Positions 7,407-60,946 of a stretch of DNA of 64,000 nucleotides are shown here, piece after piece. Made by a program: the position numbers and the translations under genes. The DNA is from Siphonodentalium dalli. Lineage: Eukaryota; Mollusca; Scaphopoda; Gadilida; Siphonodentaliidae. Numbering within the stretch: position 1 is the first letter of the stretch; each line of letters opens with the position of its first letter. The notes under the pieces were generated by a model. The model did no database searches. It was not told the origin of the DNA and saw only the letters and a list, made by a program, of their open reading frames with translations. The DNA lies in contig CP136065.1 in NCBI GenBank assembly GCA_032622095.1, positions 210,468,151 to 210,532,150 on the forward strand, given 5' to 3'.

Positions 7407-7862
7407 TGACCCGCCATATCAAATCCAGTCGTAAGTAGGGATTTTTTTACCCTGTGCCAAAGCATTCTCTTATATATGCGAGTCGACCATAGGTCGCCTC
7501 GCATATATAAGAGAATGCATTGGCCTAACAATTTTTTACAATTTTAATAATTTTTTCTTGTATTCTTTAACAATTTTATAATTTCACCCATACAGAGCCC
7601 CAGACAAACATGAGCAGACGACACTCTTCTATATGGTTCTATATATGTGTGGGGCTCCCTGCAGGGTAATGGATGTTTTTTATTTTATGTCCTAAAAATT
7701 GTAAGAAACATTTATTTAAAAAAAATGATAAAAAAATTGTTAGGCCAATGCATTCTCTTATATATGCGAGGCGACCTATGGTCGACTCGCATATATAAGA
7801 GAATGTATTGGCACAGGGTAAACAAAATCCCGACTTACGACTGGATTTGATATGGCGGGTCA
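7407..7862. mobile_element. Type B5 MITE: GACCCGCC termini around the shared double hairpin
   Basis: Terminal inverted repeats of about 30 bp start TGACCCGCCATATCAAATCC at 7407 and are mirrored at 7834-7862. Inside lie two copies, inverted to each other, of the 75-bp hairpin (CCAATGCATTCTCTTATATA ... TATATAAGAGAATGC), at about 7453-7526 and 7743-7818, separated by an AT-rich loop. The termini differ from all TTAA-type elements in this window although the inner module is the same. Confidence 0.75.
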
Positions 7863-7966
7863 CATATATGAATGAGTTATGAATAAATAAGCATAGATAG
7901 CGAACATTTGTTTGTGATGCCTTTATAACATTTACAAGTCTTCTAGTTTAGGATTGTGAACATGCC

Positions 7967-8310
7967 TTAACCCTTTGGAGAGTATCTGTAACGTCATATA
8001 CATGACGTCATGAGTAAATTTTAACGTCAACGTCATAGCAATAATTATTAACAAGTTCGGGTCAAAAGGGTCCAATAATTCGTTTTAATTTATGTGCATT
8101 TTTTTTAAACATGTGTTATCATAATCGATTACACTAAAACATTTGGGACATTGTATTAATCAAAATAACTCCTATACAAATCATTTATAAATCAGATGAT
8201 ATATTGAAGTTATGTCTACGTAAAATAACACTTCCTGAAACGACATATATGTCGTTCTACTCCTCAACCGATAGACGACATATACGTCGTTCTACTTGCC
8301 AAAGGGTTAA
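7967..8310. mobile_element. piggyBac-like TTAA MITE rich in ACGTCA and CGACATAT motifs
   Basis: Begins TTAACCCTTTGG and ends CCAAAGGGTTAA. Within it are TGACGTCA (cAMP response element consensus) near 8002, further AACGTCA repeats, and two ACGACATATA(T/C)GTCGT palindromes near 8239 and 8274. The flanks, 7918-7964 and 8318-8364, are diverged direct repeats of each other (TCTTCTAGTTTAGGATT). Confidence 0.7.
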
Positions 8311-9698: not shown

Positions 9699-10094
9699 GT
9701 AAAGTGGCAACATTTAAATGGGGAATTCAGTGTTAATTTTCAAGACAAGATTACTCAATATTTGTAAACCATGGAATAATACTTCATGTCTTGTTGGAAT
9801 GTCTGAGCCTGTATCTAGTGACAATGCAAAGCAGATTTTCCCTTTTATGATTTGTTTTGTGACATTTGATGGAAATATTATATAAACAATGATAAACAAT
9901 GGTGACATACTTTTTAATAATGTCCAATAATATCCAACCTGGGATGAAAATCAAAATTCCCCTTCGCGTGGTCATTAGATAAGTCTTCAAACTTTAAAAA
10001 AAGGTATGATATGGTCACCTGCAGTTTGTAAGGTTTGATCAGTCTTTTCTCAAAAATTAACACTGAATTCCCCATTCAAATGTTGCCACTTTAC
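9699..10094. mobile_element. MITE with about 45-bp terminal inverted repeats
   Basis: The left end GTAAAGTGGCAACATTTAAA continues through GGGGAATTCAGTGTTAATTTT and is mirrored at 10050-10094. About 300 bp of AT-rich filler lies between. It is a single copy in this window and its target duplication is unclear. Confidence 0.75.
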
Positions 10095-13234: not shown

Positions 13235-13491
13235 TTAACCCTTCCATGATTGGAGCTTCCTGAAATTTTGCAAAAACCATGTGCCAATGCATTCTCTTAT
13301 ATATGCAAGTCTCCCATATTGAGCCTTGCATATTAAGAGAATACATTGGCCTAACAATAACTTTGACCTCATAAGCCAGTGCATTCTCTTATATATGCAA
13401 GGCTCCTTATGGGAGACTCACATATCTAAGAGAATGCACTGGCACATGATCTTTAATGCTGCACTGTGAAGCTTCCATCATGAAAGGATTA
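13235..13491. mobile_element. Type B2 TTAA MITE with double hairpin
   Basis: Begins TTAACCCTTCCATGATTGG and ends with the mirrored CATCATGAAAGGATTA. It contains two 70-75 bp hairpins, inverted to each other, with the CTCCC/GGGAG stem variant, joined by AACAATAACTTTGACCTC. Confidence 0.75.
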
Positions 13492-13731
13492 TATTGTCCA
13501 ATTAACAGAAACATATACCCATTCTAGTAGCTTAGCATTAGCTTGTTCCTGGAAAGTGCTTTAAAATGTGTTATGATGCCATTTTGGCATTTATGCCAAT
13601 ACCTCTGACTGAAAAAGCGCCCTGTTCTGGAAGTTGCATCTGGCACCCCTGGAAAAGGGCACTATTTCATACATAGGTATTGATTGGCATTATGCTGCTA
13701 GAATGGATGTACTATTCTCTAATACAATATA

Positions 13732-13944
13732 CAGTAATGCCCTAAATAATCGACTCCTTAACCACAGCAGAATTATGGGTAACTTTTCAGGATTTAGTCG
13801 GAAATGTGGCTTGTTGCCATTCATCGGAAAGCTCTCAGTGAGAGCTCTCCGATGAATGGCAACAAGCCATATTTCCGACTAAATCCTGGAAAGTTACCCA
13901 TAATTCTGCTGTGGCTAAGGAGTCAATTATTTAGGGCATTACTG
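13732..13944. mobile_element. Family A palindromic MITE, 213 bp
   Basis: A near-perfect palindrome from CAGTAATGCCCTAAATAATC to its complement, flanked by TA on both sides (13730-13731, 13945-13946). The centre is GCTCTCAGTGAGAGC. TA duplications suggest mobilisation by a Tc1/mariner-type transposase, but no transposase relative is in the window. Confidence 0.85.
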
Positions 13945-14439
13945 TAACAATGCTGTTTTAGCTGATATCTGAGATATATCTTGCCATTCTATGAAGTATG
14001 AAAGGGCATTTTGTGCCCCCTGTATCCCCCGTTGGTGGAAGGCCAGAGGGGCAGTTGATCACCTCCCCTGGGTCAAACGTTCCTGCTTCTCTGTTAAAAA
14101 GTAGTAATTGATCAGCATTGAAATTCCAAACCAAGCTTTACAAAACATTTCCTGTGTTAAAGACCCCTTTAGGCTGTTATTTAACTTTGTTTTTTATCAG
14201 ACTTCAAAATAGCTTCCTATAATCTACAATTTCGTTCCTCTTGAGTTTGAACACTTGACATTTTTCTCAGCAGTTATCACTTCTTCAGTTATTAATCTCG
14301 ATTGTGATATCGAGGATTCCCCGTAGAGTTTTCACTGTTAACTATAACAACTCATCACTGCATCCCGCTGAGTTCTATTTTGTGAAGAAACACAGCGTAA
14401 GAATAGAATCGATGCTCTCTTCCTGCGGCTGTCAGCAGG

Positions 14440-14690: not shown

Positions 14691-14703
14691 CACAAACAGT
14701 AAT

Positions 14704-16346: not shown

Positions 16347-16348
<2 letters not shown>

Positions 16349-50400: not shown

Positions 50401-53400
50401 CAGGGCATAACTGTAACTATCACAATGTGGTCAAGGAGCCGGTTCCAATGATATCCATATTTGTATGGTTTTATTGAGACAGACCGAAGATATTTTAGGC
50501 TGTTGAAGCTTTATTTGGCCGGTTTGTTGGGTAAAGGGTTTAAGCTGACAATACCGTAATTGAAATGTTGAAAATAGTAAGCTCGAGAAAAAGTTAGAAC
50601 CATGTTTATGATATAAAAAAATGACTGTTTGTTACGCTCCCCATGAGAATATTCTAGTTAGCTGTAATAATCACTTATATCTATACTGTAGTACAGAAGT
50701 TGCACAAGATTCTTGAATTTTGTGGAACCGTTCAAGTTAGATTGAAAATGTCTGACTTAATATGTAAAATAAGCCGAGGCAATTTCCTGGATATCTCAAG
50801 TTTCATTCTTTTCTGACAAGAATCTGTTTCAGTTTTGTGCTGAATTTGAATTATCTTTCAACCAATATATAATACTCATATATCTTTTAAAATTGTTAGG
50901 TTAGGCTGGAAAATCAAACTTATGGTGTCAACTAAAATTATACAAGATTGTGTATACGTCTAGAAGTGAATGTAAAAATTTCTTTCACAAGTAAATAGTT
51001 TAACCCTTTACCCAACAGGACGGCCCTGTGCCAATGCATTCTCTTATATATGCGAGTCGACCATAGGTCGCCTCGCATATATAAGAGAATGCATTGGCTT
51101 AACACATTAAAAATTATAAAATTGTTAAAGAATGTAAGAAAAAATGGTAAAAAGTGTTAACTGTAACTATCACAATGTGGTCAAGGAGCCGGTTCCAATG
51201 ATATCCATATTTGTATGGTTATATTGAGACAGACCGAAGATATTTTAGGCTGTTGAAGCTTTATTTGGCCGGTTTTGGCCGTTTTGTTGGGTAAAGGGTT
51301 AATGCTGTTCTGCTCTTTTTTTCTGCAGGAGAGGTGGTATTAAAGGCTTATGACGGGCAGATGTACGGTCAGGAGATGGTTATTCCACTCAAAGCCATCC
51401 CAGCATCTCCTATAGCAATAACTAAATCATCCAAGTTTGTAGCTGTGGGAGACACTCAGACCGAACTTACAACTCGGGTATTTGATCTGAAGACGGAAAA
51501 AACACCAGATACTGTCAATATCTACCTATCAGGAGGTGAGATCTAACATTAATATTAGTACAGTAATGCCCTAAGTAATCGACTTCTTAACCACAGCAGA
51601 ATTATGGGTAACTTTTCAGGATTTAGTCGGAAATATGGCTTGTTGCCATTCATCGGAAAGCTCTCCCCGAGAGCTTTCCGATGAATGGCAACAAGCCATA
51701 TTTCCGACTAAATCCTGAAAAGTTACCCATAATTCTGGTGTGGTTAAGAAGTCGATTACTTAGAGCATTACTGTAGTTCCAATGATCTGTATGCTTATAT
51801 TGTGTTCTCCACCGACTGTATATAAAGTTATTTATTGTTGTTTGACAAATTTTTTTTGGTCATTTATCATTTTGCTTTGAAATAGATATTAGCTCCTTGT
51901 CTATTTACCTATTGTCACTCACTGAGTATGTGGTTCAGTTCTTTATCGCTGAGGTGATCCTATCTTCGAGAGTGGTAGTAATTTAATGACAAATAGTCTT
52001 ATAGATAAAAAATATAAAGAACAAATCGTGTGCCTTTGGTGTAAACAATATTTATTCTCAATCAAAAAAATTAAATAGTTGAACCCTTTCTATACTAAAT
52101 ACTCATTGACGGGTAGTTCTCTTAGGAAATGTTCCAATAATAAGTTCATTTGTTGAACTTATTATCTGAACATTTCCCTCCAATGAATATAAACCATTCT
52201 GCTTTTGTATTATCTGTTTTTATCTCAGTCGTCTTCTTTTATTACCTGAACACCCATCTAGATGAATAATATACCAATCTGATGTATACTTTTACAAATG
52301 GATGGGAGAATCGATTTAGTATAGAATGGGTTAACAAAATATTAGTGGTCGATGATGGATGATTGGAATGGGATGAGCAAGCCTTGAAGTAGTGTGTCTG
52401 TCATTTGCAGAATGAGGTCCCCAGAGGGTGAATTTAGTGATGCTACCCAGCATAGCAGGCTAGCATCACCAAATTCACCCTCTGGGTACCTCATTCTGCT
52501 TACACCTCAGCAGGATGAGGTTCCCAGAGGGTGAATTTGGTGATGCTAGCCTGCTATGCGGGGTAGCATCACTAAATTCACCCTCTGGGGACCTCATTCT
52601 GCAAATGACAGACTCACTATTTCAAGGCTTGGGGATGAGACAACAAGCCAGTGTTAAGTGTAAGTCCTCTTGTGTTCCTTTAGTCAATGAGACTGGGTTA
52701 TGAAGAGATCTCGTCACTAAACTGAATTATTATTTTCTATTTGTAGCCCCTACTCATGGTACAATTGTTCACAAACTACTGAAGATCCCAGTGAATGTGT
52801 TCACCTTGCATGACTTACAGACCGGTAACATAGTGTATGTCCATCATGGGAGGTTAGAGGAGGGAGTAGATATGATGGATTTCCAGGCTTCAGATGGTTA
52901 CAATGTCATTAATATACTCGTCCATACAGAAATCAGAGCCAAGGTATGTAGGTCATCATCAACCCATCCATGTCTGGAGCTTCCTGAAATTTTGCAAAAA
53001 CCCTGTGCTATTGCATCCTCTTATATATGCGAGTCTCCCATAGGGAGCCTCGCGTATATAAGAGAATACATTGGCCTAACAATATTTACCTTGACCTTGT
53101 AAGCCAGTGCATTCTCTTATATATGTGAGACTCCCTATGGGAGACTCGCATATATAAGAGAATGCACTGGCATAGGATCTTTAATGCTGCACCAGCGCAG
53201 CTCCCACCATGAAAGGGTTAAATGGCAGCTAGGGCTAGTCTGCTTTATTCTCTGGTCCACGGAAACATTACAGGATAGTGAGAAAGGGTGGGAATATGTA
53301 CAACAGATTTATATAAGTAAGAAATTATATATATCTGTTTATACGATATAACAAACTCCATGGTTGTATATGATACATACAACAAACTCCATGGATATAC

Positions 53401-56400
53401 ATAATATATACAACAAACTCCATGGCATCTTATCATCATCATTGTCATCATCAGCATTGTAATCGTCATCATCAAGAGCATCATCATTCTCGTCATCGAC
53501 TTCGTCACCATCATCATAGTCATCATCACAATCACATTGTCATCTACGTCATTGTCATCATCACAATCACATCATCATCATCATTGTCATCTACGTCATC
53601 TACGTCATTGTCATCGCCACCATTGTCATCATCACAATCACATCATCATCATCATTGTCATCTACGTCATTGTCATTGCCACCATTGTCATCATCACAAT
53701 CACATCATCATCATCATTGTCATCTACGTCATTGTCATCGCCAACATTGTCATCATCACAATCACATCATCATCGTCATTGTCATCTACGTCATTGTCAT
53801 CGCCACCATTGTCATCATCACAATCACATCATCATCATCATTGTCATCTACGTCATTGTCATCGCCACCATTGTCATCATCACAATCACATCATCATCAT
53901 CATTGTCATCTACGTCATTGTCATTGCCACCATTGTCATCATCACAATCACATCATCATCATCATTGTCATCTACGTCATTGTCATCGCCAACATTGTCA
54001 TCATCACAATCACATCATCATCGTCATTGTCATCTACGTCATTGTCATCGCCACCATTGTCATCATCACAATCACATCATCATCATCATTGTCATCTACG
54101 TCATTGTCATCGCCACCATTGTCATCATCACAATCACATCATCATCATCATTGTCATCTACGTCATTGTCATTGCCACCATTGTCATCATCACAATCACA
54201 TCATCATCATCATTGTCATCTACGTCATTGTCATCGCCACCATTGTCATCATCACAATCACATCATCATCGTCATTGTCATCTACGTCATTGTCATCGCC
54301 ACCATTGTCATCATCACAATCACATCATCATCATCATTGTCATCTACGTCATTGTCATCGCCACCATTGTCATCATCACAATCACATCATCATCGTCATT
54401 GTCATCTACGTCATTGTCATCGCCACCATTGTCATCATCACAATCACATCATCATCATCATTGTCATCTACGTCATTGTCATCGCCACCATTGTCATCAT
54501 CACAATCACATCATCATCATCATTGTCATCTACGTCATTGTCATCGCCACCATTGTCAATATCACAATCACATCATCATCATCATTGTCATCTACGTCAT
54601 TGTCATCGCCACCATTGTCATCATCACAATCACATCATCATCATCATTGTCATCTACGTCATTGTCATCGCCACCATTGTCATCATCACAATCACATCAT
54701 CATCATCATTGTCATCTACGTCATTGTCATCGCCACCATTGTCATCATCACAATCACATCATCATCATCATTGTCATCTACGTCATTGTCATCGCCACCA
54801 TTGTCATCATCACAATCACATCATCATCATCATTGTCATCTACGTCATTGTCATCGCCACCATTGTCATCATCACAATCACATCATCATCATCATTGTCA
54901 TCTACGTCATTGTCATCGCCACCATTGTCATCATCACAATCACATTATCATCATCATTGTCATCTACGTCATTGTCTTCGCCACCATTGTCATAATCATA
55001 ATCATTGTAGTTGTTGTAACAATCACCATGATTGTCATCATCAAGAGCATCATCATCCTCGTCATCGACTTCATCATCATCATCATAGCCATCGTCACAA
55101 TCACATTATCATCATCATCATCATTGTCAGATACATCATTGTCATCGCCACCATCGTCATCATCATAATCATTGTAGTTGTCGTCACAATCACCATCATC
55201 ATCATCAGCTTTGAATCCTCATAGTCATTGTTGCCATCATTATTATCATCATCATCATCATCCTCGCTGTTGTCATTATTGTCGTCGTCATCATCATAAG
55301 CATCATCATCATCATCCTCGCTGTTGTCATTATTGTCGTCGTCATCATAAGCATCATTATCATCATCATCCTCGCTGTTGTCATCGTCATATTATTTCTA
55401 TCATTATCATCAGGACTCGTCGACGTAACCATCATCATCAGCATCACAAACCTGACCGGATAACAAAAGAATGACTATTTTGTTAATGGCCACGACCTGC
55501 AATTTTGGAATTCTATTTTCAATCTGTCAAAATCAACAAAGAACCAACCTAAAGCTAAACAAATAAGTTATGTTTTTAGGGTGAACCATGTAAAAATGTA
55601 AATTATTACACAAGCAAGGAGAAATTTCATCTTTGCAAATTTGAATTTGATGAATATTTATTCTTTTAATTCAAGTTTCTTTCCTGCATTGATACAGAAG
55701 ATTTGTAAGAGAATGTCTTTCATATCACATTCAAAAAAAACGAAACATAGCCTTGTTTTCACTTTCAAATATATTGCTTAATTTTAGTGTTATCCTCAGA
55801 AATGTTCAAGCTAAAAGATATCAAATTAAAATATATCCTTTACTTTTGTAGGAGAGCATGATTCCCATGGTGACAAATAATCGCCCAGGTCATGCGACTG
55901 TTAACGACCTCATGCAACTCACAGACTCCATGCTGAAGATTGAGGCTGTCGATCTAAAGAATATCAAAACCACTGATGTCATCTATACATTGATGCCCCC
56001 ATTAGGGAACCCCAAGGAAGGTAGGTGTCCAACAAAACCATTGACATCATTTATACATTGATTTCCTCCACTAGGGAACCCAAAGGAGGGTACATATATC
56101 TATCAAAGATAGTAACAGTATTTTACTTGAAACAAGACATTGGTATATTATCCCTTCAAGAATAATAACCACGATTTTAAAAAGAATACTTTTGAGATAC
56201 TATTTACAAAACATTAGAAAATGAATTTGATTGTACTTACAAACTATTCGTCAATAGTATCTGAACATGACAAGTGTGTTTATCACAATGCAATATATAA
56301 CAAATTCATTCTATCTCATACACTTCTCTCAATATATTTTCATTTGTATAGCAAGACAGGAACACTCTTTTTCATCGAGCATTATATTTATGTGCTAGAA

Positions 56401-59400
56401 ATTAAGATTTCAGATTTAATTATTCCTCCCTTATATGTGTTTTAATCAGGTGAGATTCTGATGATTGTGCCGATACCGTCTCGAGGAATTGGACACGGAT
56501 GGGAGGAGATGGGCGACAGCCACATGGGAGCTAAGATGTATCGCTTCCTACAGAGAGATATAGATGAGGGCCGTATCTGGTACAAACACAAGGGTGTGTC
56601 ATCCAAGTCAGACGTCATGATGTTTGAAGTAAGTCTTATATCAATTGCGTTCTAAGAGTGGGAAGATTGAGACTGGTCAATTGTTGTAGCTGGAATATTT
56701 CTTCGTAAAACATGCTTTTAAACTATTTGTTATATTTTTGCCAAAATGTTATTCAACAGACAGATTTTCACAATAAAATCTCAACTACATTTTCCTGTAG
56801 ACATTATAAACTTGTACAGCATTCACTATCCCATATGACAGATTTCAGCTATTCACAGAAATGTTATTACTGGGATCTCTGATGTGGCATACATCAGATG
56901 TTTATTGAATCAATGTGAAATTTTAATTTAACTTCAAATTAAATTAACATTGAAATGATGCAGAAATTGGTATTGCCAGTGATCGTAACATATTCTTCTT
57001 CATTTGGGGGCATGTTTATAACGTCAATGAAATCTGCAACAAAGAGGTCAGGCACTTCACATTGTGCAAAAAAAATCCAGCATTATTTGGTATCTATAAT
57101 TAAATGATGACTGTAATCAATTTCCTGTTGCTCTGCAGAACCACACGTTTTCCAGCACAAATTATATTTCCATCTCATCTACCTATGACTCACTTCAACT
57201 ATAGTAATTATAGTCATATGAATAGGATGTCCTTCAGTTCAGTTTCGTGCTAAACCGATATGGAAATTTCAAAAAGATATTTGTCAATTTATTTGAAATT
57301 TTAGATCATTCTATTTTTTATATAATAATTACAATTTCATTATAAAAGGATGCCCGATTGCCTGTTTAGAGCTTTTTAAAGCCTGTTGGTGTGTGTAAGT
57401 AATCGTGCAAGGGTGAGTGCGTGAAGGAACGTATAATTGATTGTATATTGTGTCAGATGAATGTCCTCCATTGTAATCAACATAACTGTATAACCCATCT
57501 TCATGTACTAGTATGTGAAATCATCTGACTATCTGGAGAAAAAATGATGACCTTAACAATGAATTTATTCACAATAGGTACATTTGTACTTCTCTTGATA
57601 ATTGTAGGCAGCGGACACTAGTGTTCCTCCAAATATACTGAAGCTTCAGGAATTCCACATTGAAATCATATCAGATGACATCAGCTATCTGGCTGAACCA
57701 ACCATCTCTCCTGGTATCAGACTCGGAATTACGGTTAGTATGTTCAGCACCTATAGGAGGATTACTTTAACGAGGCTCTTTTCCAAGTTGAATGTGACAG
57801 TAACCCGTAGCAATAGTTTCATTGAAGCGCAATTACAGAAGGTTGAGAAATTTGGTATGGATGATTAACACTTTCTATGCTAAATACTCATTGACGAGTA
57901 GTTACACCTTAGGAAATGTTCAGATAATAAGTTCAAAGAACGACAAGGTCGTTTGTTGGACTTATTATCTGAACATTTCCCAGCAATAAATAGAAATCGT
58001 TCTGCATTTGTCTTATCTTTTTGTATATCTGTCGCCTGCTTATATTACCTGAATATCCCTTCAATTGAATAATAGTCCATTCCAATGTATACTTTTATAA
58101 CCTGGTGGGAGAATCCATTTAGTATAGAAAAGAAAAAGTACCCTTTATCCTTCCTTTATTGACAATCCAGTCATCAAGATCCAAATGCTGACATGTCGGA
58201 CGATATTTTATGCCATGGACTTGACAGCAAGGTTACAACTCTTGTGTGGTATGTAAGCTGAAAATTTTAATTTTATTTCAAAATAGTTGTGTGCTGTTTC
58301 AACATAATAAAACAATTTTGATTGCCATAACTTTTCAGAATTTTGTCTAATTATTTGTCTAGGTAATGGAACACCAGGTAGCTCCTATCACGACTGCTAA
58401 CCTTGCGTTTGAGGACCAGGACACAAATGATGAAAGCCTGGTGTACTCGCTGACTGAGACATTAGGAGATGACGAAGGAACTATAGAACATAGAGACAAT
58501 CCATATGCACCAATCTATAGCTTCACGCAGGAGAATATCAACAATAATCGGGTCATCTACCGACCGCCGTCAACCGACATTGGAGCAGACGATAAAGAAG
58601 TTAGCTTCAAATTCATTGGTTAGTTTTTTATTTTATTATATTCTCAAGAATGAATTATCAAAATAATCGCAGCTAAGCAATTTTCTATACCCCCTGTATG
58701 GGGGGGGGGGGGGGGGGGGGGGTAGAAATGTTCACTTTCACCCTATCTCCCATGAGCGACCGATTCAATAGCATGTACCAATGCAATGAATATTGTAAAA
58801 TCCTCATGATTGAATCACCAGAGTTGAACTTACTTTTATTATTATATATCATAAGAAAACTTGGTTTTGTGTTCAAATTCAACATACATAATATATGGGG
58901 AAATTAATCGATTAATATGGGAGCTACAGTAATGCCCTGAATAATTGACTCCTTAACCACAGCAGAATTATGGGTAACTTTTCAGGATTTAGTCGGAAAT
59001 ATGGCTTGTTGCCATTCATCGGAAAGCTCTCACTGAGAGCTTTCTGATGAATGGCAACAAGCAATATTTCCGACTAAATCCTGAAAAAACTGAGAGCTTT
59101 CCGATGAATGGCAACAAGCCATATTTCCGACTAAATCCTGAAAAGTTACCAAAAATTCTGCTGTGGTTAAGGAGTCGATTATTTAGGGCATTACTGTACG
59201 GTATGGTATATAACACAGAAACATTGCCGTCATATATCTTTACAGTTTCTGATGGGCAGAAAGGAAAGAAATATCCAGAGCGAAAGTTTTCTATAAAGAT
59301 TCTCCCGGTAAATAACGCAGCTCCAAGGTTCTACAACTCTCATGTGAAGCTGACGGTATCGCAGGGAGGAGTGCTGCCAATAGGGGGCGCTGATTATGCA

Positions 59401-60453
59401 GTCAGTGACCCGGATACTAAAATCGATAAAGTGATGCTGAGTTTACTGAGAGCATCTTATAGTGGTCAGATTGAAATGATCACTGACAATTCCAGGATCG
59501 TCCTAAGAGCAGGTATTAACAAGATTTATTCTGTTAGCACATTATTGACGTATATATTCGTGTAGTCTCTGAAACGCCAATGTTAATTTTTCGGAGTTAC
59601 ATCTATAATCCGATGAAAATTCCATTTAGATCAAATAAAATTTTGATAATAGCAGCCCTCATAATTCAGATTGTTTGACTTCGGCAATCCACTATGGCAA
59701 CCCTGTATCGTGGTCCAGTTTTCTTCAGCAAATAACTTCGGCATTGCAGATTGCCATAGTCAATTATGTGGGCTGTAATAGGCATGTTTTTTCTGCTTGG
59801 TTGACATGGCAAACTCTGAGCCAGGAAATTATTCCTGTCAACTATGATGTCCATCATGTCCTTGATAACATTTGCTCTGATTTCAAGCCGTGTGTATCAT
59901 CTATTCTTATCAAAATATTATTCAAACAAGTTCAAATGCATAGGCAACCACTTTATGTTTCTTTTGTGCCTTGAAATAGGGTGTCTGTCATTTGCAGAAT
60001 GAGGTCCCCAGAGGGTGAATTTAGTGATGCTACCCCGCATAGCGGGCTAGCATTACCAAATTCACCCTCTGGGAACCTCATTATGCTGAGGTGTAAGCAG
60101 AATGAGGTCCCCAGAGGGTGAATTTGGTGATGCTAACCCGCTATGCGGGGTAGCATCACTAAATTCACCCTCTGGGGACCTCATTATGCAAATGACAGAC
60201 ACTATTTCAAGGCTTGCCTGTAACAAGCTCTTTCATTCTTTAGGTGATACATTCACTCACAACGAGTTGTTAGCAACATCCTTCCAGTACAGGCATGACG
60301 GATCATCATCTCCAGACAAGGACAGCTTCCAGATAGCCGCTAACGATGGGGTGCAGCAGTCTATCTTATATGGTGACATCACTATCATACAAGTCAGCGA
60401 CTCGACTCCAACCATCGTTACCACAGCATCATGCTTCGTTAAAGTCAATGAAG
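20329..60453 (+). CDS. FRAS1: FRAS1-type extracellular matrix protein gene (24 internal exons, partial)
   Basis: FRAS1 is a large, membrane-anchored basement-membrane protein that acts with FREM proteins in epithelial-mesenchymal adhesion. Its family order is signal peptide, VWC modules, furin-like repeats, CSPG/NG2 repeats, Calx-beta domains, transmembrane segment. The window shows that order: four VWC modules (about residues 1-250 of the visible protein), eight FU repeats (251-635) and about four and a half CSPG-type repeats (636-1264). FREM1-3 lack the VWC and FU parts, so FRAS1 is the best match. Phases join without a frameshift across all 24 exons, all introns are GT-AG, and no stop occurs. 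Missing are the start with signal peptide and everything after the fifth CSPG repeat. Vertebrate FRAS1 is about 4000 residues with about 14 FU repeats, so the FU block here looks shorter. Confidence 0.85.
20481..20850 (+). mobile_element. Family C hAT-like MITE, partial right end
   Basis: Starts about 18 bp after the splice donor of exon a with AAGCTGAATTTAGTGTGTC. The left hairpin (GAGGGTGAATTTAGTGACGC) is complete. The right hairpin is cut off by the start of the repeat at about 20852. Confidence 0.7.
20852..21098. repeat. Family D iterated repeat ('caccagag..atggccc' type), copy 1
   Basis: Carries GTAAGTCTGAACTGAATGGA, GAAATTTGGT and CCAATTTTCACCAGAG units, then a partial second unit, and ends near ACGCCCTAGCAATGCTCTTG. 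Related copies lie at 36660, 42430, 47598 and 61045. It is a mollusc-style interspersed repeat whose class is not established here. Confidence 0.65.
21778..22399. mobile_element. Family G repeat with ATACCCCC / GGGGGTAT ends
   Basis: Begins near AATACCCCCATATAAAATGG and TACTGGATTGACTG, and ends GTGGGGGTATGCTAGCACG then CACACCTCTTGTT. It has internal iterated units (ATGAACCGATTTCAA twice, near 21887 and 22051). A second copy lies at 29655-30147. Confidence 0.6.
22432..22644. mobile_element. Family A palindromic MITE, 213 bp
   Basis: Full-length palindrome flanked by TA (22430-22431 and 22645-22646), with a few substitutions in the outer arm (CAATAATGCCC). Nested in the family C element. Confidence 0.85.
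23538..23791. mobile_element. Family C hAT-like MITE with perfect 8-bp target duplication
   Basis: Compact 254-bp form. Ends CAAGCCTTGAAATAGGG and its complement. Flanks are GCGGAATT at 23530-23537 and 23792-23799, identical. The two inverted hairpins are separated only by GCTGAGGTGTAAGC. This copy shows the element class most clearly. Confidence 0.9.
24030..24510 (+). pseudogene. Degenerate LINE ORF1-like coding remnant
   Basis: Broken reading frames can be followed across several frameshifts: a Lys/Glu-rich coiled-coil-like part (MRETQRKIIENIDTAES), an RKRDITLPK block, then CPIKIIVKSKQIRDKIVKEA. The last string resembles the C-terminal domain motif of non-LTR retrotransposon ORF1 proteins (RPIKV.F...RD.V...A). 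Stops and frameshifts show it is dead. The assignment rests on motif resemblance only. Confidence 0.4.
25054..25266. mobile_element. Family A palindromic MITE, 213 bp
   Basis: Flanked by TA on both sides. Arms match almost completely; the centre is GCTCTCAGTAAGAGC. Confidence 0.85.
25308..25733 (+). mobile_element. Family C hAT-like MITE, full length (CTGAG subfamily)
   Basis: Ends CAAGTCTGAGTTTAGTGTG and CTAAACTCAGGCTTG. Flanks GGTGGATG and GGTGAGTG could be a decayed 8-bp duplication. The central part includes the GAAACTTTGATTCTATTTTT block also present, inverted, in the 10446 copy. Confidence 0.75.
25769..25920. mobile_element. Family C single-hairpin derivative
   Basis: One hairpin only, with ends CGAAATAATGTGTTTGTC and its rough complement CACTATTTCAATGACT. 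It looks like a deletion product of the double-hairpin form. Confidence 0.55.
25921..26990. other. AT-rich intronic sequence, nothing recognised
   Basis: No exon or known family. Near 26725-26815 GTGAACTAATTACCTGG-like text is locally duplicated. Confidence 0.4.
26991..27607. mobile_element. Type B2 TTAA MITE carrying a nested family A MITE
   Basis: Begins TTAACCCTTTCATGACTGG at 26991 and ends CCCGTCATGAAAGGGTTAA at 27607. The first hairpin is interrupted in its right arm (CCTCGCATA / TAAGAGAATG) by a family A copy at 27093-27269, with TA duplicated. The final TTAA is also the first TTAA of the next element. Confidence 0.8.
27093..27269. mobile_element. Family A palindromic MITE, centre deleted
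   Basis: A 177-bp copy with perfect outer arms flanked by TA, lacking about 36 bp of one inner arm. Inserted in the hairpin stem of a B2 element. Confidence 0.85.
27604..28451. mobile_element. Type B4 TTAA MITE with an internal insertion
   Basis: Begins TTAACCCTGTCTATACTTAC, shares GACGAGTAGTTCCC and the GGAAATGTTCAGATAATAAA hairpin core with other B4 copies, and ends near TTGTATAGGAAGAGTTAA. The centre (about 27822-28400) is foreign and includes the palindrome at 27822-27992. Confidence 0.6.
27822..27992. repeat. Palindrome with about 80-bp arms
   Basis: AGAACCGCATGAG at the left pairs with CTCATGCGGTTCT at the right. The arms continue through GTCTGGATT, TTTGTTGGCGGA and GCGATACCTC to the tip GTGCGGGACACAGTCCCGCAC. 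Some arm positions differ by small indels, so it is an old foldback. Confidence 0.8.
28617..29069. mobile_element. Type B1 TTAA MITE, double hairpin
   Basis: Begins TTAACCCTTTACCCAACAG and ends TTTGTTGGGTAAAGGGTTAA. Two inverted 75-bp hairpins at about 28643-28716 and 28851-28921 flank an AT-rich loop of ACATTCTTTAACAATT-type units. The subterminal block GGTTCCAATGATATCCATAT is shared with the other B1 copies. The last TTAA is shared with the following B2 fragment. Confidence 0.85.
29066..29395. mobile_element. Type B2 TTAA MITE, left half plus expanded loop
   Basis: Begins TTAACCCTTTCATGATGGG, has one hairpin (29110-29190), then a long AT-rich stretch of loop-type units (AAAATGATAAAAATTATAAA). 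No right hairpin or terminus is present before exon b, which starts about 20 bp later. Confidence 0.6.
29416..29499 (+). CDS. FRAS1: FRAS1 exon b: VWC 1 end and VWC 2 start
   Basis: 84 bp, phase 0 to 0. Acceptor TATTCTTTCAG, donor AAG/GTAAAT. Encodes GEKLERRDDECCPQCV, the CCPxC end typical of VWC, followed by the first cysteine of the next module (PICIESGVQHK). Confidence 0.85.
29655..30147. mobile_element. Family G repeat directly upstream of exon c
   Basis: Starts near TTATTACTGGATTGACTTTG and ends GTGGGGGTATACCAGCAGCC then GAGTGCAACTTCTTGTT, the same ending as the 21778 copy. The last bases lie within 10 bp of the exon c splice acceptor. Confidence 0.6.
30157..30261 (+). CDS. FRAS1: FRAS1 exon c: VWC 2 core
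   Basis: 105 bp, phase 0 to 0, donor AAG/GTATGT. Encodes DGSLWKSDLCTHCVC, then SGKVSCHHEEC: the W and CxxCxC core of a VWC module. The polypyrimidine tract (CTTCTTGTTATTTTTAG) overlaps the end of a family G repeat. Confidence 0.85.
30277..30439. mobile_element. Family A palindromic MITE, 163 bp, 15 bp after exon c
   Basis: Arms are perfect but the central 50 bp are missing, leaving GGAAATATGGCAACAAGCCA as the tip. Flanked by TA. Confidence 0.85.
30854..30911 (+). CDS. FRAS1: FRAS1 exon d: VWC 2 end
   Basis: 58 bp, phase 0 to 1. Encodes NEITVTRTGDCCPSCVSEQ with the CCPxC closing motif. Donor GTAGGG. Confidence 0.8.
30973..31122 (+). mobile_element. Family C hAT-like MITE, left hairpin only
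   Basis: Starts CAAGCCTGGATATAGTG. One hairpin around GAGGGTGAATGTAGTGAAG. Ends in the central TATAGTCTCAAATTAAC text with no right half. Confidence 0.65.
31702..33896. mobile_element. 2.2 kb non-coding piggyBac-like TTAA element
   Basis: Starts TTAACCCTTATTCCAACG and ends TGTTGGGAAAAGGGTTAA, inserted precisely at a TTAA. No long ORF is present. Inside are a tandem CGTATCGTCTTTTGACGTCT pair (31720-31775) and a duplicated segment with CAGAAACACGTGGTT or ATAGAAACACGTGGTT (about 31949-32005 and 32409-32480). It is too long for a typical MITE yet carries no transposase. Confidence 0.75.
33942..33963. repeat. Poly(A) tract in MITE loop
   Basis: About 22 A residues in the loop of the B3 element. 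A similar tract occurs at 44641-44660 in the related copy. Confidence 0.9.
34129..34905. mobile_element. Type B4 TTAA MITE with nested family H element
   Basis: Begins TTAACCCTTTCTATACTAAA and GACGAGTAGTTCC. The right side resumes at about 34825 with TCTGTCTGCCTTCTGCTTTT and CACCCCTCCAATG as in other B4 copies. Family H (about 34277-34816) sits in the middle. The right terminus is eroded. Confidence 0.6.
34277..34816. mobile_element. Family H repeat with 70-bp-arm palindrome, copy 1
   Basis: Starts near TTATTACATGATCCTACC, contains GGAAATAGTGCCA and CAAAGAGTCTTTATTTAT, and ends with a palindrome at about 34668-34816 (ATCTACAACTCGTCCCCAG mirrored by CTGGGGACTCATTGTAGAT; inner arms CCAGTAAATTAGGTCTGGAC). 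Copy 2 is at 38977-39515. Confidence 0.7.
34906..36306. other. Intronic sequence, nothing recognised
   Basis: No exon, RNA gene or named repeat seen between exons d and e in this part of a 6.5 kb intron. Confidence 0.4.
36307..36431 (+). mobile_element. Family C hAT-like MITE, left hairpin only
   Basis: Starts CAAGCCTGAGTTTAGTGTG and contains one hairpin (GAGGGTGAATTTAGTGACGC mirrored by TCACTAAACTCACCCTC). Confidence 0.7.
36660..37325. repeat. Family D iterated repeat, copy 2
   Basis: Four diverged units of about 155 bp repeat TTCCGNATGATAACT..., AAATTTGGTATG, CAGGTCAAGTTCGAATT and GGTTCCGTCCGCCAATTTT. Two neighbouring units share TCCGACCGATAACTCCAGTT and are nearly identical, so recent local duplication occurred. 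It ends about 100 bp before exon e. Confidence 0.7.
37422..37555 (+). CDS. FRAS1: FRAS1 exon e: VWC 3, first part
   Basis: 134 bp, phase 1 to 0. Encodes GTCMHDNRMMYTRDIW, then CGYCMCDQGNVQC and CEQHECKK. Same phase and length as exon a, which also opens a VWC module. Acceptor TCTAATTTTAG, donor AAG/GTTAGT. Confidence 0.85.
37871..37917. repeat. B4 hairpin core, isolated, perfect 21-bp arms
   Basis: GAAATGTTCAGATAATAAGTT and its exact complement separated by five bases. It is the inner palindrome of type B4 elements without recognisable termini. Confidence 0.85.
38326..38700. repeat. Half type-B hairpin followed by amplified loop repeats
   Basis: Starts with TATAGGTCGCC and TATATAAGAGAATGC then ATTGGCCTAACAA, the right arm of a type B hairpin. 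About 320 bp follow in which CTTACATTCTTTAACAATTT and ATCATTTTTT units are repeated roughly ten times, whereas the loop of intact elements holds one to three. No second hairpin is present. Confidence 0.7.
38741..38827 (+). CDS. FRAS1: FRAS1 exon f: VWC 3 end and VWC 4 start
   Basis: 87 bp, phase 0 to 0. Encodes NEVKVRHPDKCCEECF, then PQKCSYQDEEYF. Acceptor CTGCTTGCAG, donor GTGAGT. Confidence 0.85.
38977..39515. mobile_element. Family H repeat, copy 2
   Basis: Co-linear with 34277-34816, including the terminal palindrome (CCAGTAAATTAGGTCTG mirrored by CAGACCTAATTTACTGG). It lies outside any B4 element, showing H is a separate mobile unit. Confidence 0.7.
39517..39656. mobile_element. Family A palindromic MITE, left arm truncated
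   Basis: Keeps CATTCATCGGAAAGCTCTC, the tip and most of the right arm to TTACTG followed by TA. It abuts the end of family H. Confidence 0.75.
39954..40101 (+). CDS. FRAS1: FRAS1 exon g: VWC 4 core and end
   Basis: 148 bp, phase 0 to 1. Encodes NGELWHPDYCSICEC, then HDGVVTCYKTNCPICP and PGECCGQCQP. This closes the VWC region and leaves in phase 1, the phase used by every following FU exon. Confidence 0.85.
41016..41162 (+). CDS. FRAS1: FRAS1 exon h: furin-like repeat 1
   Basis: 147 bp, phase 1 to 1. Encodes one FU repeat with eight cysteines: ECDEGCRNC, YCTKCPPGKV, CLDKCPESTY and a final C. Acceptor TTATGCAG, donor GTAAGA. Confidence 0.85.
41416..41815. mobile_element. Type B1 TTAA MITE, double hairpin
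   Basis: TTAACCCTTTACCC to GGGTAAAGGGTTAA. Hairpins at about 41565-41641 (with an extra ATA in one arm) and 41717-41791. Confidence 0.85.
41829..42066 (+). mobile_element. Family C hAT-like MITE, right half
   Basis: Begins in the central text (TATGCATTTTATCTT) and ends CTATTTGCAGGCTTG, 54 bp upstream of exon i. Confidence 0.7.
42121..42261 (+). CDS. FRAS1: FRAS1 exon i: furin-like repeat 2
   Basis: 141 bp, phase 1 to 1, eight cysteines: DCHETCDEC, HCTTCMPGLF, CVRQCGYGFY, final C. Acceptor TCTCTCTCAG, donor GTGGGT. Confidence 0.85.
42430..42855. repeat. Family D iterated repeat, copy 3
   Basis: Starts TTATGCACCCATTTTTCAAC and GGGACGTATTATG, with two units of CTGAATGGAATGA(A/T)ATTTGG...CAATTTTCACCA. 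It ends at about 42855 after CGATGCTCTTC. Confidence 0.7.
42965..43108 (+). CDS. FRAS1: FRAS1 exon j: furin-like repeat 3
   Basis: 144 bp, phase 1 to 1, eight cysteines: ACHHDCDTC, QCLSCSNPTQ, CVDMCEERFF, final C. Acceptor CATTCTTGCAG, donor GTGAGT. Confidence 0.85.
43927..44115 (+). mobile_element. Family C hAT-like MITE, left half
   Basis: Starts CATGCCTGCAAATAG, one full hairpin, then TATAGTCTCAAATTAAG and the start of the central text. It ends about 95 bp before exon k. Confidence 0.7.
44209..44349 (+). CDS. FRAS1: FRAS1 exon k: furin-like repeat 4
   Basis: 141 bp, phase 1 to 1, eight cysteines: ACPPMCSSC, FCVGCEAGSS, CLSNCPNGLF, final C. Unlike the other FU exons it ends in C before GTAAGT, so the split codon with the next exon is CGA (Arg). 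Confidence 0.85.
44561..44786. mobile_element. Type B3 TTAA MITE, single hairpin
   Basis: TTAACCCTTTGATTGCCAGG to CTGGCACTCAAAGGGTTAA. One hairpin (44668-44742) after a poly(A) loop. It serves as the empty-site reference for the nested insertion at 31702. Confidence 0.85.
44833..44878. mobile_element. Family C fragment
   Basis: Only TATGCGGGATAGCGTCAC, AAATTCACCCTCTGGGG and ACCTCA remain: one arm of the right hairpin. Confidence 0.65.
44963..45109 (+). CDS. FRAS1: FRAS1 exon l: furin-like repeat 5
   Basis: 147 bp, phase 1 to 1, eight cysteines: RCHPSCHSC, NCTSCHGGAL, CNMACPGGQY, final C. Acceptor TTATTTTTAG, donor GTAAGT. The last 64 bp plus the donor are repeated immediately downstream (45120-45190). 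Confidence 0.85.
45046..45190 (+). repeat. Tandem duplication of exon end plus splice donor (2 x 71 bp)
   Basis: 45046-45116 and 45120-45190 are identical over 71 bp and separated by TAT. Each copy contains the end of exon l and a complete ATG/GTAAGTT donor. The TTAA at the end of copy 2 is the insertion site of the following B1 element. Confidence 0.95.
45189..45578. mobile_element. Type B1 TTAA MITE inserted in a duplicated splice donor
   Basis: The first TTAA overlaps the GTAAGTTAA of the duplicated donor. Two inverted hairpins at about 45331-45404 and 45480-45554. Ends GGGTAAAGGGTTAA. Confidence 0.85.
46078..46230 (+). CDS. FRAS1: FRAS1 exon m: furin-like repeat 6
   Basis: 153 bp, phase 1 to 1, eight cysteines: DCDDGCGAC, KCMNCTDDTE, CVPHCEDGRY, final C. 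It is the longest FU exon, with a few extra residues (IGIEGQIP) between cysteines 3 and 4. Confidence 0.85.
46231..47316. other. Intron, largely unique
   Basis: No known repeat except a short piece near 46458-46530 with ATTTATATAGCACTTTATCC, which resembles widespread metazoan interspersed repeats. Confidence 0.4.
47317..47457 (+). CDS. FRAS1: FRAS1 exon n: furin-like repeat 7
   Basis: 141 bp, phase 1 to 1, eight cysteines: DCGEHCQIC, ECHQCIPPYP, CVESCARGTY, final C. Acceptor TTGATTCCAG, donor GTATGA. Confidence 0.85.
   Translation: MAGSTVRFVRIRLNAISASHLTHYSALIVLRVVHEELTLTEEKTCA
47598..48005. repeat. Family D iterated repeat, copy 4
   Basis: Starts TTTATGTGCCCATAAAATGG and ends GCCACGCCCTAGAGATGCTC. 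Two units. The start and end match copies 1 and 3, so these mark the element boundaries. Confidence 0.75.
48100..48554. mobile_element. Type B3 TTAA MITE, single hairpin
   Basis: TTAACCCTTTGAGTGCCAGG to CTGAAAGAGTTAA, hairpin at 48150-48223. It contains TTACAGACCGTAAATTAGG and AAGCATGCTATAGC-type text shared with the copy at 60536. Confidence 0.75.
48766..48968. repeat. Tandem repeat, about 6 units of 32-34 bp
   Basis: Unit ATAGCTGAAATAATTGTATC plus TCTATACATCAA. The outer units are diverged. Confidence 0.85.
49014..49154 (+). CDS. FRAS1: FRAS1 exon o: furin-like repeat 8 (last)
   Basis: 141 bp, phase 1 to 1, eight cysteines: DCSENCVEC, ECTLCANDTY, CTEECDEGFY, final C. The next exon starts CSPG-type sequence, so this ends the cysteine-rich half. 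Confidence 0.85.
49217..49436. mobile_element. Family A palindromic MITE, full length
   Basis: Near-perfect palindrome from about 49219 (CAGTAATGATCTAAGTAA) to CATTACTG followed by TA. It starts about 63 bp after the exon o donor. Confidence 0.85.
49615..49890 (+). CDS. FRAS1: FRAS1 exon p: first CSPG repeat, main part
   Basis: 276 bp, phase 1 to 1. Encodes VNKWAPKIIVNSSIVVTEGM, then DLNNIWVTDKDSPLDRVTF, PPGNGYI, and FTYSDLRDGKIRFIHQ. The pattern 'EG....I....L...D.D.....F.V...P..G.I.......F...D...G.I.Y.H' is the CSPG/NG2 repeat signature. No cysteines, in contrast with the preceding exons. Confidence 0.85.
49907..50075. mobile_element. Degenerate B2-like single-hairpin MITE
   Basis: TTAAAGCCACACTTTCATGA and GGAGCT on the left, AGCTCCAGTCATGGAAG on the right, with one hairpin around GTGCCAGTGCATTCTC. 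It begins about 17 bp after the exon p donor. Confidence 0.65.
50153..50543. mobile_element. Type B1 TTAA MITE, double hairpin
   Basis: TTAACCCTTTACCCAACAG to GTTGGGTAAAGGGTTTAA. Hairpins at about 50183-50254 and 50331-50402. One extra T precedes the final TAA. Confidence 0.85.
51000..51302. mobile_element. Type B1 TTAA MITE, one hairpin deleted
   Basis: Same termini and subterminal blocks as other B1 copies but only the left hairpin remains. Sequence passes from GGTAAAAAGTGTTAA straight to CTGTAACTATCACAATG. It ends 26 bp before exon q. Confidence 0.85.
51329..51535 (+). CDS. FRAS1: FRAS1 exon q: CSPG repeat 1 end and repeat 2 start
   Basis: 207 bp, phase 1 to 1. Encodes GEVVLKAYDGQMYGQEMVI (the D-G strand closing repeat 1), then IAITKSSKFVAVGDTQTEL opening repeat 2. 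Acceptor TTTCTGCAG, donor GTGAGA. Confidence 0.85.
51560..51775. mobile_element. Family A palindromic MITE, full length, 24 bp after exon q
   Basis: CAGTAATGCCCTAAGTAATC to its complement, flanked by TA. The centre is GCTCTCCCCGAGAGC; the tip bases differ between copies while the arms stay matched. Confidence 0.85.
52079..52334. mobile_element. Type B4 TTAA MITE, intact
   Basis: TTGAACCCTTTCTATACTAA to TTTAGTATAGAATGGGTTAA. Inner hairpin GGAAATGTTCCAATAATAAG mirrored by CTTATTATCTGAACATTTCC. Reference copy for the family. Confidence 0.8.
52378..52631. mobile_element. Family C hAT-like MITE with perfect 8-bp target duplication
   Basis: 254 bp. Ends CAAGCCTTGAAGTAG and CTATTTCAAGGCTTG. Flanked by GGGATGAG at 52370-52377 and 52632-52639. 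Two inverted hairpins joined by TTACACCTCAGCA. Confidence 0.9.
52747..52943 (+). CDS. FRAS1: FRAS1 exon r: CSPG repeat 2
   Basis: 197 bp, phase 1 to 0. Encodes APTHGTIVHKLLKIPVNVFT, LHDLQTGNIVYVHHGR, then DMMDFQASDGYNVINI. The G.I and F...DL..G.I.Y.H signatures are clear. Donor AAG/GTATGT. Confidence 0.85.
52957..53222. mobile_element. Type B2 TTAA MITE, double hairpin, 14 bp after exon r
   Basis: Left end eroded (CAACCCATCCATGTCTGGAG), right end CCACCATGAAAGGGTTAA. Both hairpins have the CTCCC/GGGAG stem variant. Confidence 0.75.
53430..55450. repeat. 62-bp CAT/GTC-rich minisatellite with 248-bp higher-order repeat
   Basis: The core unit (CACATCATCATCATCATTGT, then CATCTACGTCATTGTCATCG, then CCACCATTGTCATCATCACA, AT) is exactly 62 bp and recurs about 23 times from about 53540 to 55000. 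Degenerate CAT-rich flanks with a second local unit lie at 55230-55390. Marker variants (TCATTGCC at 53673, 53921 and 54169) recur every 248 bp, that is, four units. Since 62 is not a multiple of three the frame rotates each unit and all three + frames stay open, producing spurious ORFs up to 600 codons. Confidence 0.95.
55475..55851. other. AT-rich intron end before exon s
   Basis: No element recognised. Confidence 0.4.
55852..56020 (+). CDS. FRAS1: FRAS1 exon s: CSPG repeat 3, first part
   Basis: 169 bp, phase 0 to 1. Encodes ESMIPMVTNNRPGHATVND, then LKIEAVDLKNIKTTDVIY. The sequence is less conserved than repeat 1. The exon end with its donor is present in a second, diverged copy just downstream (56033-56095). 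Confidence 0.8.
55965..56095 (+). repeat. Diverged tandem duplication of exon s end plus donor
   Basis: 55965-56026 and 56033-56095 align from CAAAACCA(C/T)TGA through TATACATTGAT and TAGGGAACCC to a GGAGG/GTACAT or GGAAG/GTAGGT donor, offset 68 bp, with several substitutions. Reading on from the first copy meets a stop in the second, so copy 2 is not usable in frame. Confidence 0.8.
56450..56628 (+). CDS. FRAS1: FRAS1 exon t: CSPG repeat 3, middle
   Basis: 179 bp, phase 1 to 0. Encodes GEILMIVPIPSRGIGHGWEE, then YRFLQRDIDEGRIWYKHKGV (F..RDID.G.I.Y.H signature). Donor GAA/GTAAGT. Confidence 0.85.
56629..57607. other. Intron without recognised elements
   Basis: I see neither a hairpin element nor a family D repeat; this is one of the few clean introns of the gene. 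Confidence 0.45.
57608..57733 (+). CDS. FRAS1: FRAS1 exon u: CSPG repeat 3 to 4 linker
   Basis: 126 bp, phase 0 to 0. Encodes AADTSVPPNILKLQEFHIEI, then PTISPGIRLGIT. Acceptor ATAATTGTAG, donor ACG/GTTAGT. Confidence 0.8.
57865..58130. mobile_element. Type B4 TTAA MITE
   Basis: TTAACACTTTCTATGCTAAA and GACGAGTAGTTAC. Hairpin AAATGTTCAGATAATAAG with a longer loop (CAAAGAACGACAAGGTCG). The right end TTTAGTATAGAAAAG lacks the final TTAA. Confidence 0.75.
58363..58618 (+). CDS. FRAS1: FRAS1 exon v: CSPG repeat 4
   Basis: 256 bp, phase 0 to 1. Encodes VMEHQVAPITTANLAFEDQD, LVYSLTETLGDDEGTI, then IYSFTQENINNNRVIYRPP. The order A..I....L.F.D.D....L.Y.L...G.I and F.Q..I....V.Y matches the family. 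Confidence 0.85.
58700..58722. repeat. Poly(G) tract of 23 bases
   Basis: Follows ATACCCCCTGTAT, the same C-run/G-run arrangement seen at the head of family G and at 14704. The tract may be an expanded remnant of such an end. It could form G-quadruplexes on the + strand. Confidence 0.9.
58927..59197. mobile_element. Family A palindromic MITE with duplicated right arm
   Basis: Starts CAGTAATGCCCTGAATAATT. After the tip (CTCTCACTGAGAGC) the right inner arm is present twice (about 59034-59086 and 59091-59145) before continuing to CATTACTG with TA. It ends 48 bp before exon w. Confidence 0.8.
59246..59512 (+). CDS. FRAS1: FRAS1 exon w: CSPG repeat 4 end and repeat 5 start
   Basis: 267 bp, phase 1 to 1. 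Encodes VSDGQKGKKYPERKFSIKIL (SDG closing motif), PVNNAAPRFYN, then DYAVSDPDTKIDKVML. The +1 frame is open without a stop upstream into the family A MITE as far as 59047. Confidence 0.85.
59966..60216. mobile_element. Family C hAT-like MITE, compact form, 27 bp before exon x
   Basis: Left end eroded (GTGCCTTGAAATAGGG), right end CTATTTCAAGGCTTG. Two inverted hairpins joined by GCTGAGGTGTAAGC as in the 23538 copy. No target duplication seen because the left end has changed. Confidence 0.8.
60244..60453 (+). CDS. FRAS1: FRAS1 exon x: CSPG repeat 5, partial
   Basis: 210 bp, phase 1 to 1. Encodes GDTFTHNELLATSFQYRHDG, DSFQIAANDGVQQSIL, then VTTASCFVKVNEG, where the final EG opens the next repeat. 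The following exon lies beyond the window or was not recognised in the last 3.5 kb. Confidence 0.85.
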
Positions 60454-60535
60454 GTATCATCACTTATATAATGATATTGCCGTCTTACAGATCAGTGACT
60501 GTCATCAACAATCATGATCACAGGTTTATGCTTTC

Positions 60536-60946
60536 TTAAGCCTTTCAGTGCCAGGGGCCGATCTCATCGGCCCTAATTTACGGTCTGTAATTTTTTTTTT
60601 TTGGTTGAATTTTTTTTGGCTATGCTTAAGCATGCTATAGCGAATTTTAAAACAAACTGGATATAACCTTAGGGGCATGTTATAACTCAAAACTATCACC
60701 AAGTATTCATAGTAATAATTTTGATGCCCATGAAAAATGTAAGATTCCCTGGCACTAAACCTACAAAATAAGTCTGTTAAATAATATACGAAAAAATTAT
60801 TAAAATTGTAAATTGTAAAAAATAATAACAATGCATTCTCTTATATATGCAAGGTGACCTATGGTCGACTCGCATATATAAGAGAATGCATTGGCACAGG
60901 GTATATGGGTTGATACAAAAATCGGACCTGGCACTGAAAGGGTTAA
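60536..60946. mobile_element. Type B3 TTAA MITE, single hairpin
   Basis: TTAAGCCTTTCAGTGCCAGG to CTGGCACTGAAAGGGTTAA, hairpin at about 60832-60896. It carries GGCCGATCTCATCGGCCC and the GCATGCTATAGCGAATT text also present in the 48100 copy, in the opposite orientation. Confidence 0.8.

Follow-up and report, generated by a model that had tools for sequence, protein, structure and literature searches.

Across the window (the whole stretch of DNA analysed here, 64,000 nucleotides), several families of short non-autonomous DNA transposons (MITEs) carry one near-identical palindromic core and its AT-rich linker under unrelated ends, which suggests that the core has passed between elements. We consider it on balance probable, and the best reading of the data, that the core was passed between element ends by recombination.

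The arm of the hairpin, CCAATGCATTCTCTTATATA, had 47 matches with at most 3 mismatches in the 64-kb window, compared with 0.04 expected from shuffles. These matches correspond to 26 places at which a 69-bp near-perfect hairpin is present, sometimes truncated or degenerate (2/26 are the halves of a single B2b hairpin), and the count of about 25 hairpins given in the original prediction was thus borne out. The hairpins reside in copies of three families, B1, B2 and B3, in an element with TGACCCGCC ends (GACCC), and at two sites that belong to no recognised element. Consensus-like copies have 27 plus 5 paired bases. The four copies tested by single-stranded DNA folding reached -31.7 to -36.1 kcal/mol (z -12 to -16), and one whole B1 element folded at -129.5 kcal/mol vs. 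a shuffle mean of -38. The elements and isolated copies are listed below, with the strand in parentheses where assigned.

3810: degenerate hairpin copy, in no recognised element
7407-7862: GACCC, 43-44 bp terminal inverted repeats (TIRs, TGACCCGCC...) around a double-hairpin cassette, single copy in the window
7450-7530 (+): left hairpin module of GACCC, 98.8% identical to the query
7524-7584 (+): AT linker of GACCC, common to B3 and B1 (0/300 shuffles as good)
7738-7818 (-): right hairpin module of GACCC, inverted, 98.8% identical to the query
13235-13491 (+): B2a, two hairpins of the CTCCC type, short linker
26991-27607 (+): B2b, Z palindrome inserted at TA in hairpin 1, ~190 bp between the right hairpin and the right tip
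27091-27271: Z element inside the B2b hairpin, with TA duplication
28617-29069 (+): B1a, two hairpins and AT linker
29066-~29400 (+): B2c, B2 tip, CGACC-type hairpin and AT linker, right end not found
31643-34056: B3a, one B3 element split by the TTAA element X, hairpin core deleted
31702-33896: X, 2195-bp TTAA-bounded element with no long reading frame and no hairpin
38333-38700 (+): truncated cassette with expanded linker minisatellite, in no recognised element
41416-41815 (-): B1b, two hairpins and AT linker
44561-44786 (-): B3b, single hairpin
45189-45578 (-): B1c, two hairpins and AT linker
48100-48554 (+): B3c, single hairpin
~49912-50075 (-): B2e, degraded B2, one hairpin reaching both tips
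50153-50542 (+): B1d, two hairpins and AT linker
51000-51302 (+): B1e, second hairpin gone through internal deletion
~52960-53221 (+): B2d, two CTCCC-type hairpins, left tip degraded
60536-60946 (-): B3d, single hairpin

Uninterrupted elements that retain both ends span 226-456 bp. The sequences at 31643 and 33893 could be taken as separate half-elements ending at the linker TTAA; we dropped this interpretation and read them as the halves of one B3 element interrupted by X. X sits in the linker TTAA of B3a, and the same site is uninterrupted in B3b, B3c and B3d (empty site). The right tip of X matches B1 over 22 bp at 91%, no long reading frame was found in X when it was read by eye, and CGTATCGTCTTTTGACGTC occurs twice near its left end. 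In the hairpin of B3a (33893-34056), a symmetric deletion has removed the core, so that a short palindrome remains.

From the outside to the inside, the cassette consists of CCCTGTG, the hairpin, C(C/T)TAACA, the AT linker with a minisatellite-like unit (TTCTTACATTCTTTAACAATTTTAT...) and, often, a second, inverted hairpin. The hairpin is common to the elements, as originally predicted, but the common unit is longer than the predicted 75 bp and includes the AT linker. The predicted arrangement of two inverted hairpins around an AT loop was present in B1a-d and GACCC. It did not apply to B2a, B2b and B2d, in which two hairpins flank a short, non-AT linker of different sequence, nor to B3 and B2e, which have one hairpin, nor to B1e, in which the second was deleted. 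In B2c, a B2 tip occurs together with the AT linker and a hairpin of the CGACC type. In 15 aligned copies of CGACC-type hairpins, a slight asymmetry of the core faces the same way relative to CCCTGTG, as read from the alignment.

We tabulated 23 outer junctions of the cassette, leaving out 3810, the B2b pieces at 27270 and 27312, and 38333. CCCTGTG was exact in 16/23 and altered in 7/23; the right hairpin of B2b, which is outside this set, lacks it. The last two bases outside the cassette are TA in GACCC and B3, GG/GA or TG in B1, and AA, GA or AT in B2. The TTAA sequence did not touch the outer edge at any junction (0/23), lying 3-4 bases outside it in three B2 right-hand junctions, and no constant target duplication was found at the 23 cassette edges. 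These junctions give no support to the suggestion that the cassette is itself a mobile unit, for which a Tc1/mariner-like edge of the B1 cassette, described below, is a favourable hint. Neither an intact solo cassette nor a B1, B2 or B3 copy without the cassette was found in the window, and at E values up to 1e-6 the linker of the copy near 38 kb matched only hairpin-bearing elements.

The tips of B1, B2 and B3 all begin with TTAACCCTTT, exact or with one change, and carry the terminal motif CC(C/T)T. Among 13 B copies tabulated (B2c, whose right end is lost, was left out), TTAA was found at both ends in nine (B1a, B1b, B1c, B1e; B2b; B3a-d), one end was altered in two (B1d, B2a), and two were degraded (B2d, B2e). 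The three families thus have the TTAA target duplication of piggyBac-type MITEs; TTAA duplications are named as a piggyBac hallmark in the text of PMC2872659. Judging by these ends, the transposases that move B1, B2 and B3 are most likely of the piggyBac type and come from elsewhere. No transposase was seen in the window among 10 chosen frames scanned against Pfam, or in X by eye. Autonomous elements would be recognised by the sequence ends CCCTTTACCCAACA, CCCTTTCATGA and CCCTTTGAGTGCC.

The common start of the tips bears on the prediction of four unrelated termini. B1, B2 and B3 form one TTAA group, so that the prediction fails for their outermost bases; it stands for their subterminal sequences, which are of three kinds, and for GACCC. 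The view that all termini are diverged versions of one TIR fits the TTAACCCTTT start of 3/4 ends, but past ten tip bases the number of between-family pairs with p < 0.05 was about that expected by chance (1/18 over 14 bases, 1/18 over 30). GACCC has TIR copies that match at 95% over 42 bp, is flanked by ataatata and catatatg, and ends in TGACCCGCC instead of the TTAA and CCCT of a piggyBac-type MITE; no clear target duplication was found for it. No TTAACCC tip surrounds its cassette, which thus lies outside any B tip, and we rejected the idea, raised with the original prediction, that GACCC is a nested insertion of a complete B element. Some elements with TTAACCCTT-type ends have no hairpin: X, Y (7967-8310) and the B4 family (e.g., 34129, 52080). 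Y is TTAACCCTTTGG-ended, with the palindromes ACGTCATATACATGACGT and ACGACGTATATGTCGT near its tips, and the DNA on both of its sides has GTCTTCTAGTTTAGGATT in common. A general rule of short palindromes in each TTAACCCTTT tip was discarded as not clearly above random: the scores of 16 tips were 3-8, compared with a median of 4 and a 95th percentile of 6 in 3000 random stretches, and scores of at least 7 were reached by 3/16 tips (two of them the same B3 end) vs. 137/3000 random stretches.

The comparison of cores and ends included 19 modules (B2b, B2e, the core-deleted B3a at 33964, and the fragments at 3810, 27270 and 38333 were left out). Mean identity of the hairpin module between B1, B3 and GACCC was 93-97% (single pairs 86-98%), whereas that of the outer 40 bp was 32-44%, compared with 45% (sd 6) in 1000 random 40-mer pairs; the values for the B1 short side are lowered, as its 40-bp flanks extend beyond the 24-bp tip into host DNA. 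The CTCCC-type B2 modules were 79-86% identical to other modules. The outer 40 bp of B3 and of the right side of B2 were 54% identical, near the random 95th percentile (55%), in part due to the common tip. The original claim of one core behind several ends thus holds, and it extends to the unpaired linker. The pattern is that of the coral CMITEs: different TIRs with one conserved internal region.

In the linker, the best local stretches between GACCC and B3 were 41/46 (B3a), 40/41 (B3b), 40/43 (B3c) and 35/38 (B3d), i.e., 89-98%; those between GACCC and B1 were 46/53 (B1d) and 43/50 (B1c), i.e., 86-87%, and that between GACCC and B2c was 41/51. Identity between B3 and B1 was only 75-80%. All 13 linker pairs tested beat 300/300 shuffles, B3b-B1c barely (23 vs. 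the best shuffle of 22). Because this unpaired linker is common as well, the sharing is not accounted for by selection that acts only on the hairpin. Strong selection is unlikely to have acted on an AT linker that does not pair, and we therefore favour a single origin for cassettes that now sit under different ends, a reading that, from the linker identities, would hold most closely for GACCC and B3. The linker identity also led us to reject plain descent with divergence of the ends. Since the linker belongs to the common unit, transfer can be distinguished from constraint.

The hairpins of B1 and B3 were about four times less variable than the remainder of those elements. Variable columns made up 3/138 in the hairpins vs. 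26/262 elsewhere in B1 (5 copies, p 0.004), and 2/69 vs. 41/365 in B3 (4 copies, p 0.03, or 0.07 when compared with tip 1 alone), where the core of one hairpin is deleted and most of the tip 2 side is covered by just two copies. When both families were pooled, the figures were 5/207 and 67/627 (Fisher p 9e-5, with columns taken as independent). B2, represented by one pair per side, had no clear difference between the hairpin and the tip (87% vs. 88% on the left, 86% vs. 79% on the right). In 21 aligned hairpins, 18 of them distinct, 95.3% of cells were paired, as compared with 30-48% when the arms were slid. Changes on both sides of a pair were seen in 15 cells at 4/32 pairs, all in B2 (shuffle mean 5.1; 0/500 shuffles with as many cells), but neither the number of pairs nor that of pair types with a both-sided change was above shuffles (175 and 347 of 500). 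The both-sided changes in B2 may be inherited, and the pattern of pairing would be expected from either arm-to-arm correction or selection for pairing.

A Tc1/mariner-like end forms one outer edge of the B1 cassette in four two-hairpin copies, which is a new observation. It was recognised by its likeness to the Z family, eight palindromic elements of 167-274 bp with TACAGTAATGCCCT or close forms at the ends. The Z family is probably of the Tc1/mariner type, and we take its members to be palindromic MITEs of that class. The positions are as follows.

13730-13946: Z element
22430-22646: Z element
25052-25268: Z element
27091-27271: Z element in B2b
30275-30441: Z element
49215-49431: Z element
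51559-51775: Z element
58925-59198: Z element
28919-28932 (-): Tc1/mariner-like end TACAGTTATGCCCT
41552-41565 (+): Tc1/mariner-like end TACAGTTATGCCCT
45316-45329 (+): Tc1/mariner-like end TACAGTTATGCCCT
50402-50415 (-): Tc1/mariner-like end TACAGTTATGCCCT

The TACAGTAATGCCCT-type motif, with at most one mismatch, had 20 matches (0.04 expected), namely 15 Z ends, one match alone at 39645, and the 4 B1 cassette edges. At these edges, TACAGTTATGCCCT lies on the long side in 4/4 B1 copies that keep this side (B1a-d) and is identical to the Z family end at 13/14 bases; in B1e, the long side with the Z-like end was lost by deletion. A Z-like end was not found at the B2, B3 and GACCC junctions (0/14, with up to 5 mismatches allowed), and the two B1 short-side junctions searched match it with 4-5 mismatches. 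The TA duplication of Z was observed at the one site checked, in the B2b hairpin, the left half of which ends with CATATA and the right half of which starts with TATAAG; intact hairpins read CATATATAAG at this site. The joins fall in letters common to both partners (CCCT for Z, CC for the B1 TIR), and such short overlaps fit template switching, for which they are weak evidence.

Our preferred explanation, which is drawn from sequence, is a recombinational transfer of the cassette, which could have run in either direction, as cassette-free B copies and intact solo cassettes are absent from the window. The cassette would have moved from one set of ends to another, either by recombination or through template switching when excision gaps were repaired, and each element would then have spread with its own transposase. 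The near-perfect palindromes could have been kept by mutual correction of the arms or by aiding synapsis, as do the palindromes bound by piggyBac transposases. More tentatively, and at a strength well below that of transfer as such, the palindromic module may be mobile independently of any one transposase, passing by recombination between superfamilies (TTAA/piggyBac, Tc1/mariner and the TGACCCGCC type) and gaining new ends and a transposase each time, while arm-to-arm correction keeps the hairpin nearly perfect. The main rival, which we regard as rather unlikely, is that the cassette is a present or former transposon with Tc1/mariner-like ends (TACAGTTATGCCCT...), which inserted in the ancestors of the TTAA elements and GACCC and later had its outermost bases trimmed; its solo form would be a TACAGTTATGCCCTGTG-hairpin element with TA duplications. 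The TACAGTTATGCCCT edge of the B1 copies, so close to the end of Z, whose TA duplication is seen in B2b, argues for it, as does the TA immediately next to the cassette, which GACCC has at both edges and the four B3 copies have at the edge facing the tip. However, the Z-like end is missing from all 14 B2, B3 and GACCC junctions, where foreign sequence reaches CCCTGTG exactly, a result that independent insertions would not yield, and no intact solo copy is present in the window.

Selection alone, with a hairpin needed for transposition and tips that diverged by ordinary descent, as suggested by the authors of the CMITE paper, appears improbable to us. The low variability of the B1 and B3 hairpins is consistent with it, and so are the binding of a palindrome by piggyBac transposase via paired cysteine-rich domains, as described in the text of PMC11707139, and the stronger conservation of internal regions than of TIRs in CMITEs, as described in that of PMC2872659. 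Yet the unpaired AT linker is 86-98% identical between GACCC and B1 or B3, while their tips are at the random level; within families, the compared tips differ by just ~4% (B1) and ~6% (B3 tip 1). Moreover, GACCC has non-TTAA ends, and X, Y and B4 have TTAACCCTT-type ends yet no hairpin. A function of the hairpin in the host at the RNA or DNA level, as a small-RNA precursor or a fragile site, with its spread a by-product of the elements, is very improbable: the extensive pairing and stable folding of the hairpin would suit such a function, but the window sequence has no Rfam match at gathering scores, and the elements lie in both orientations. The unequal distances of the hairpin from the two tips, by analogy with piggyBac, make it a plausible candidate for a transposase-binding site.

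Searches for relatives of the elements gave no convincing candidate. Of the viral-contig scans, one returned 32 loci and the others none; the scan of genome contigs returned 18 loci, none of them convincing. When the hairpin and four elements were compared by BLAST with 50 loci, the matches listed were only 17-31-bp matches to the hairpin around the 17-mer searched with; they were dismissed as chance. ARAGORN found nothing in the window. The window has the look of animal DNA. In the 10 frames scanned, Cadherin_3 exceeded the Pfam cut-off at 49563-49892 (+) and 58363-58620 (+); a third match to Cadherin_3 and two of the furin-like kind fell below their cut-offs, and we take these frames to belong to FRAS1/FREM. 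A frame at 1794-2258 has a weak match to a C17orf113-type zinc finger (E 1.7e-6, just under the curated cut-off). Another palindromic repeat family, with GCAGAATGAGGTCC and arms of 107-123 bp at 95-96%, is present at 23538-23791, 52378-52631 and 59981-60202, and long minisatellites occupy 53566-55004 (62-bp units) and 62103-63972 (18-bp units).

Repeated hairpins that spread within a genome are familiar from foldback elements. The repetitive hairpin-forming elements of sponge mitochondria are likewise repeated hairpins spread within a genome; the likeness is one of description, and the abstract of that report does not mention TIRs with TTAA duplications (PMC2800124). The ends of the Tc1/mariner-type palindromic MITEs of the window, TACAGT(A/T)ATGCCCT, match one edge of the B1 cassette, but the sequence beyond CCCT is unrelated, and the Z-like end is seen only in B1. 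With piggyBac-superfamily MITEs, the window elements have the TTAA target and the CC(C/T)T motif in common, although neither a transposase nor an autonomous partner was found in the window. In piggyBac itself, the text of PMC11707139 describes 19-bp palindromes at asymmetric distances from the two tips, the palindrome being bound by two cysteine-rich domains.

The closest parallel is that of the CMITEs of the coral Acropora (Wang, Zhang, Meyer, Matz 2010). These comprise six families, which duplicate TTAA, differ in their TIRs (mostly of the CCCTTT type) and contain a conserved 75-base internal region, the origin of which, in the words of the authors, "remains a mystery" (PMC2872659); GenBank EU814629 is given there as a record that contains a CMITE core. 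In a literature search by titles and abstract openings, we found no other report of MITE families with a common core under different ends. The window elements resemble CMITEs, as these are described in that text, in their TTAA duplications, CCCTTT-type ends, several TIR families over one core, and an inside more conserved than the ends; in a post hoc comparison, the TIR of CMITE family VI, CCCTTTCACTGCCA, differed from the B3d end, CCCTTTCAGTGCCA, at one of 14 bases. By this analogy, the two sets of elements would work alike. They differ in that CMITEs are described as ~100 bp long with one internal region, whereas the window elements are 226-456 bp long and have a hairpin core, in many cases present as two inverted copies around an AT linker. 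The terms hairpin, palindrom- and secondary structure are absent from the main text of PMC2872659, and the hairpin core is a feature of the window elements. Unlike in the CMITEs described there, the cassette is also found in an element outside the TTAA group (GACCC). We regard the case as real and well bounded: a single palindromic core lies under several ends, as in the CMITEs, and, unusually, it is also found outside the TTAA group. The case bears on how MITE families acquire new ends or cores.
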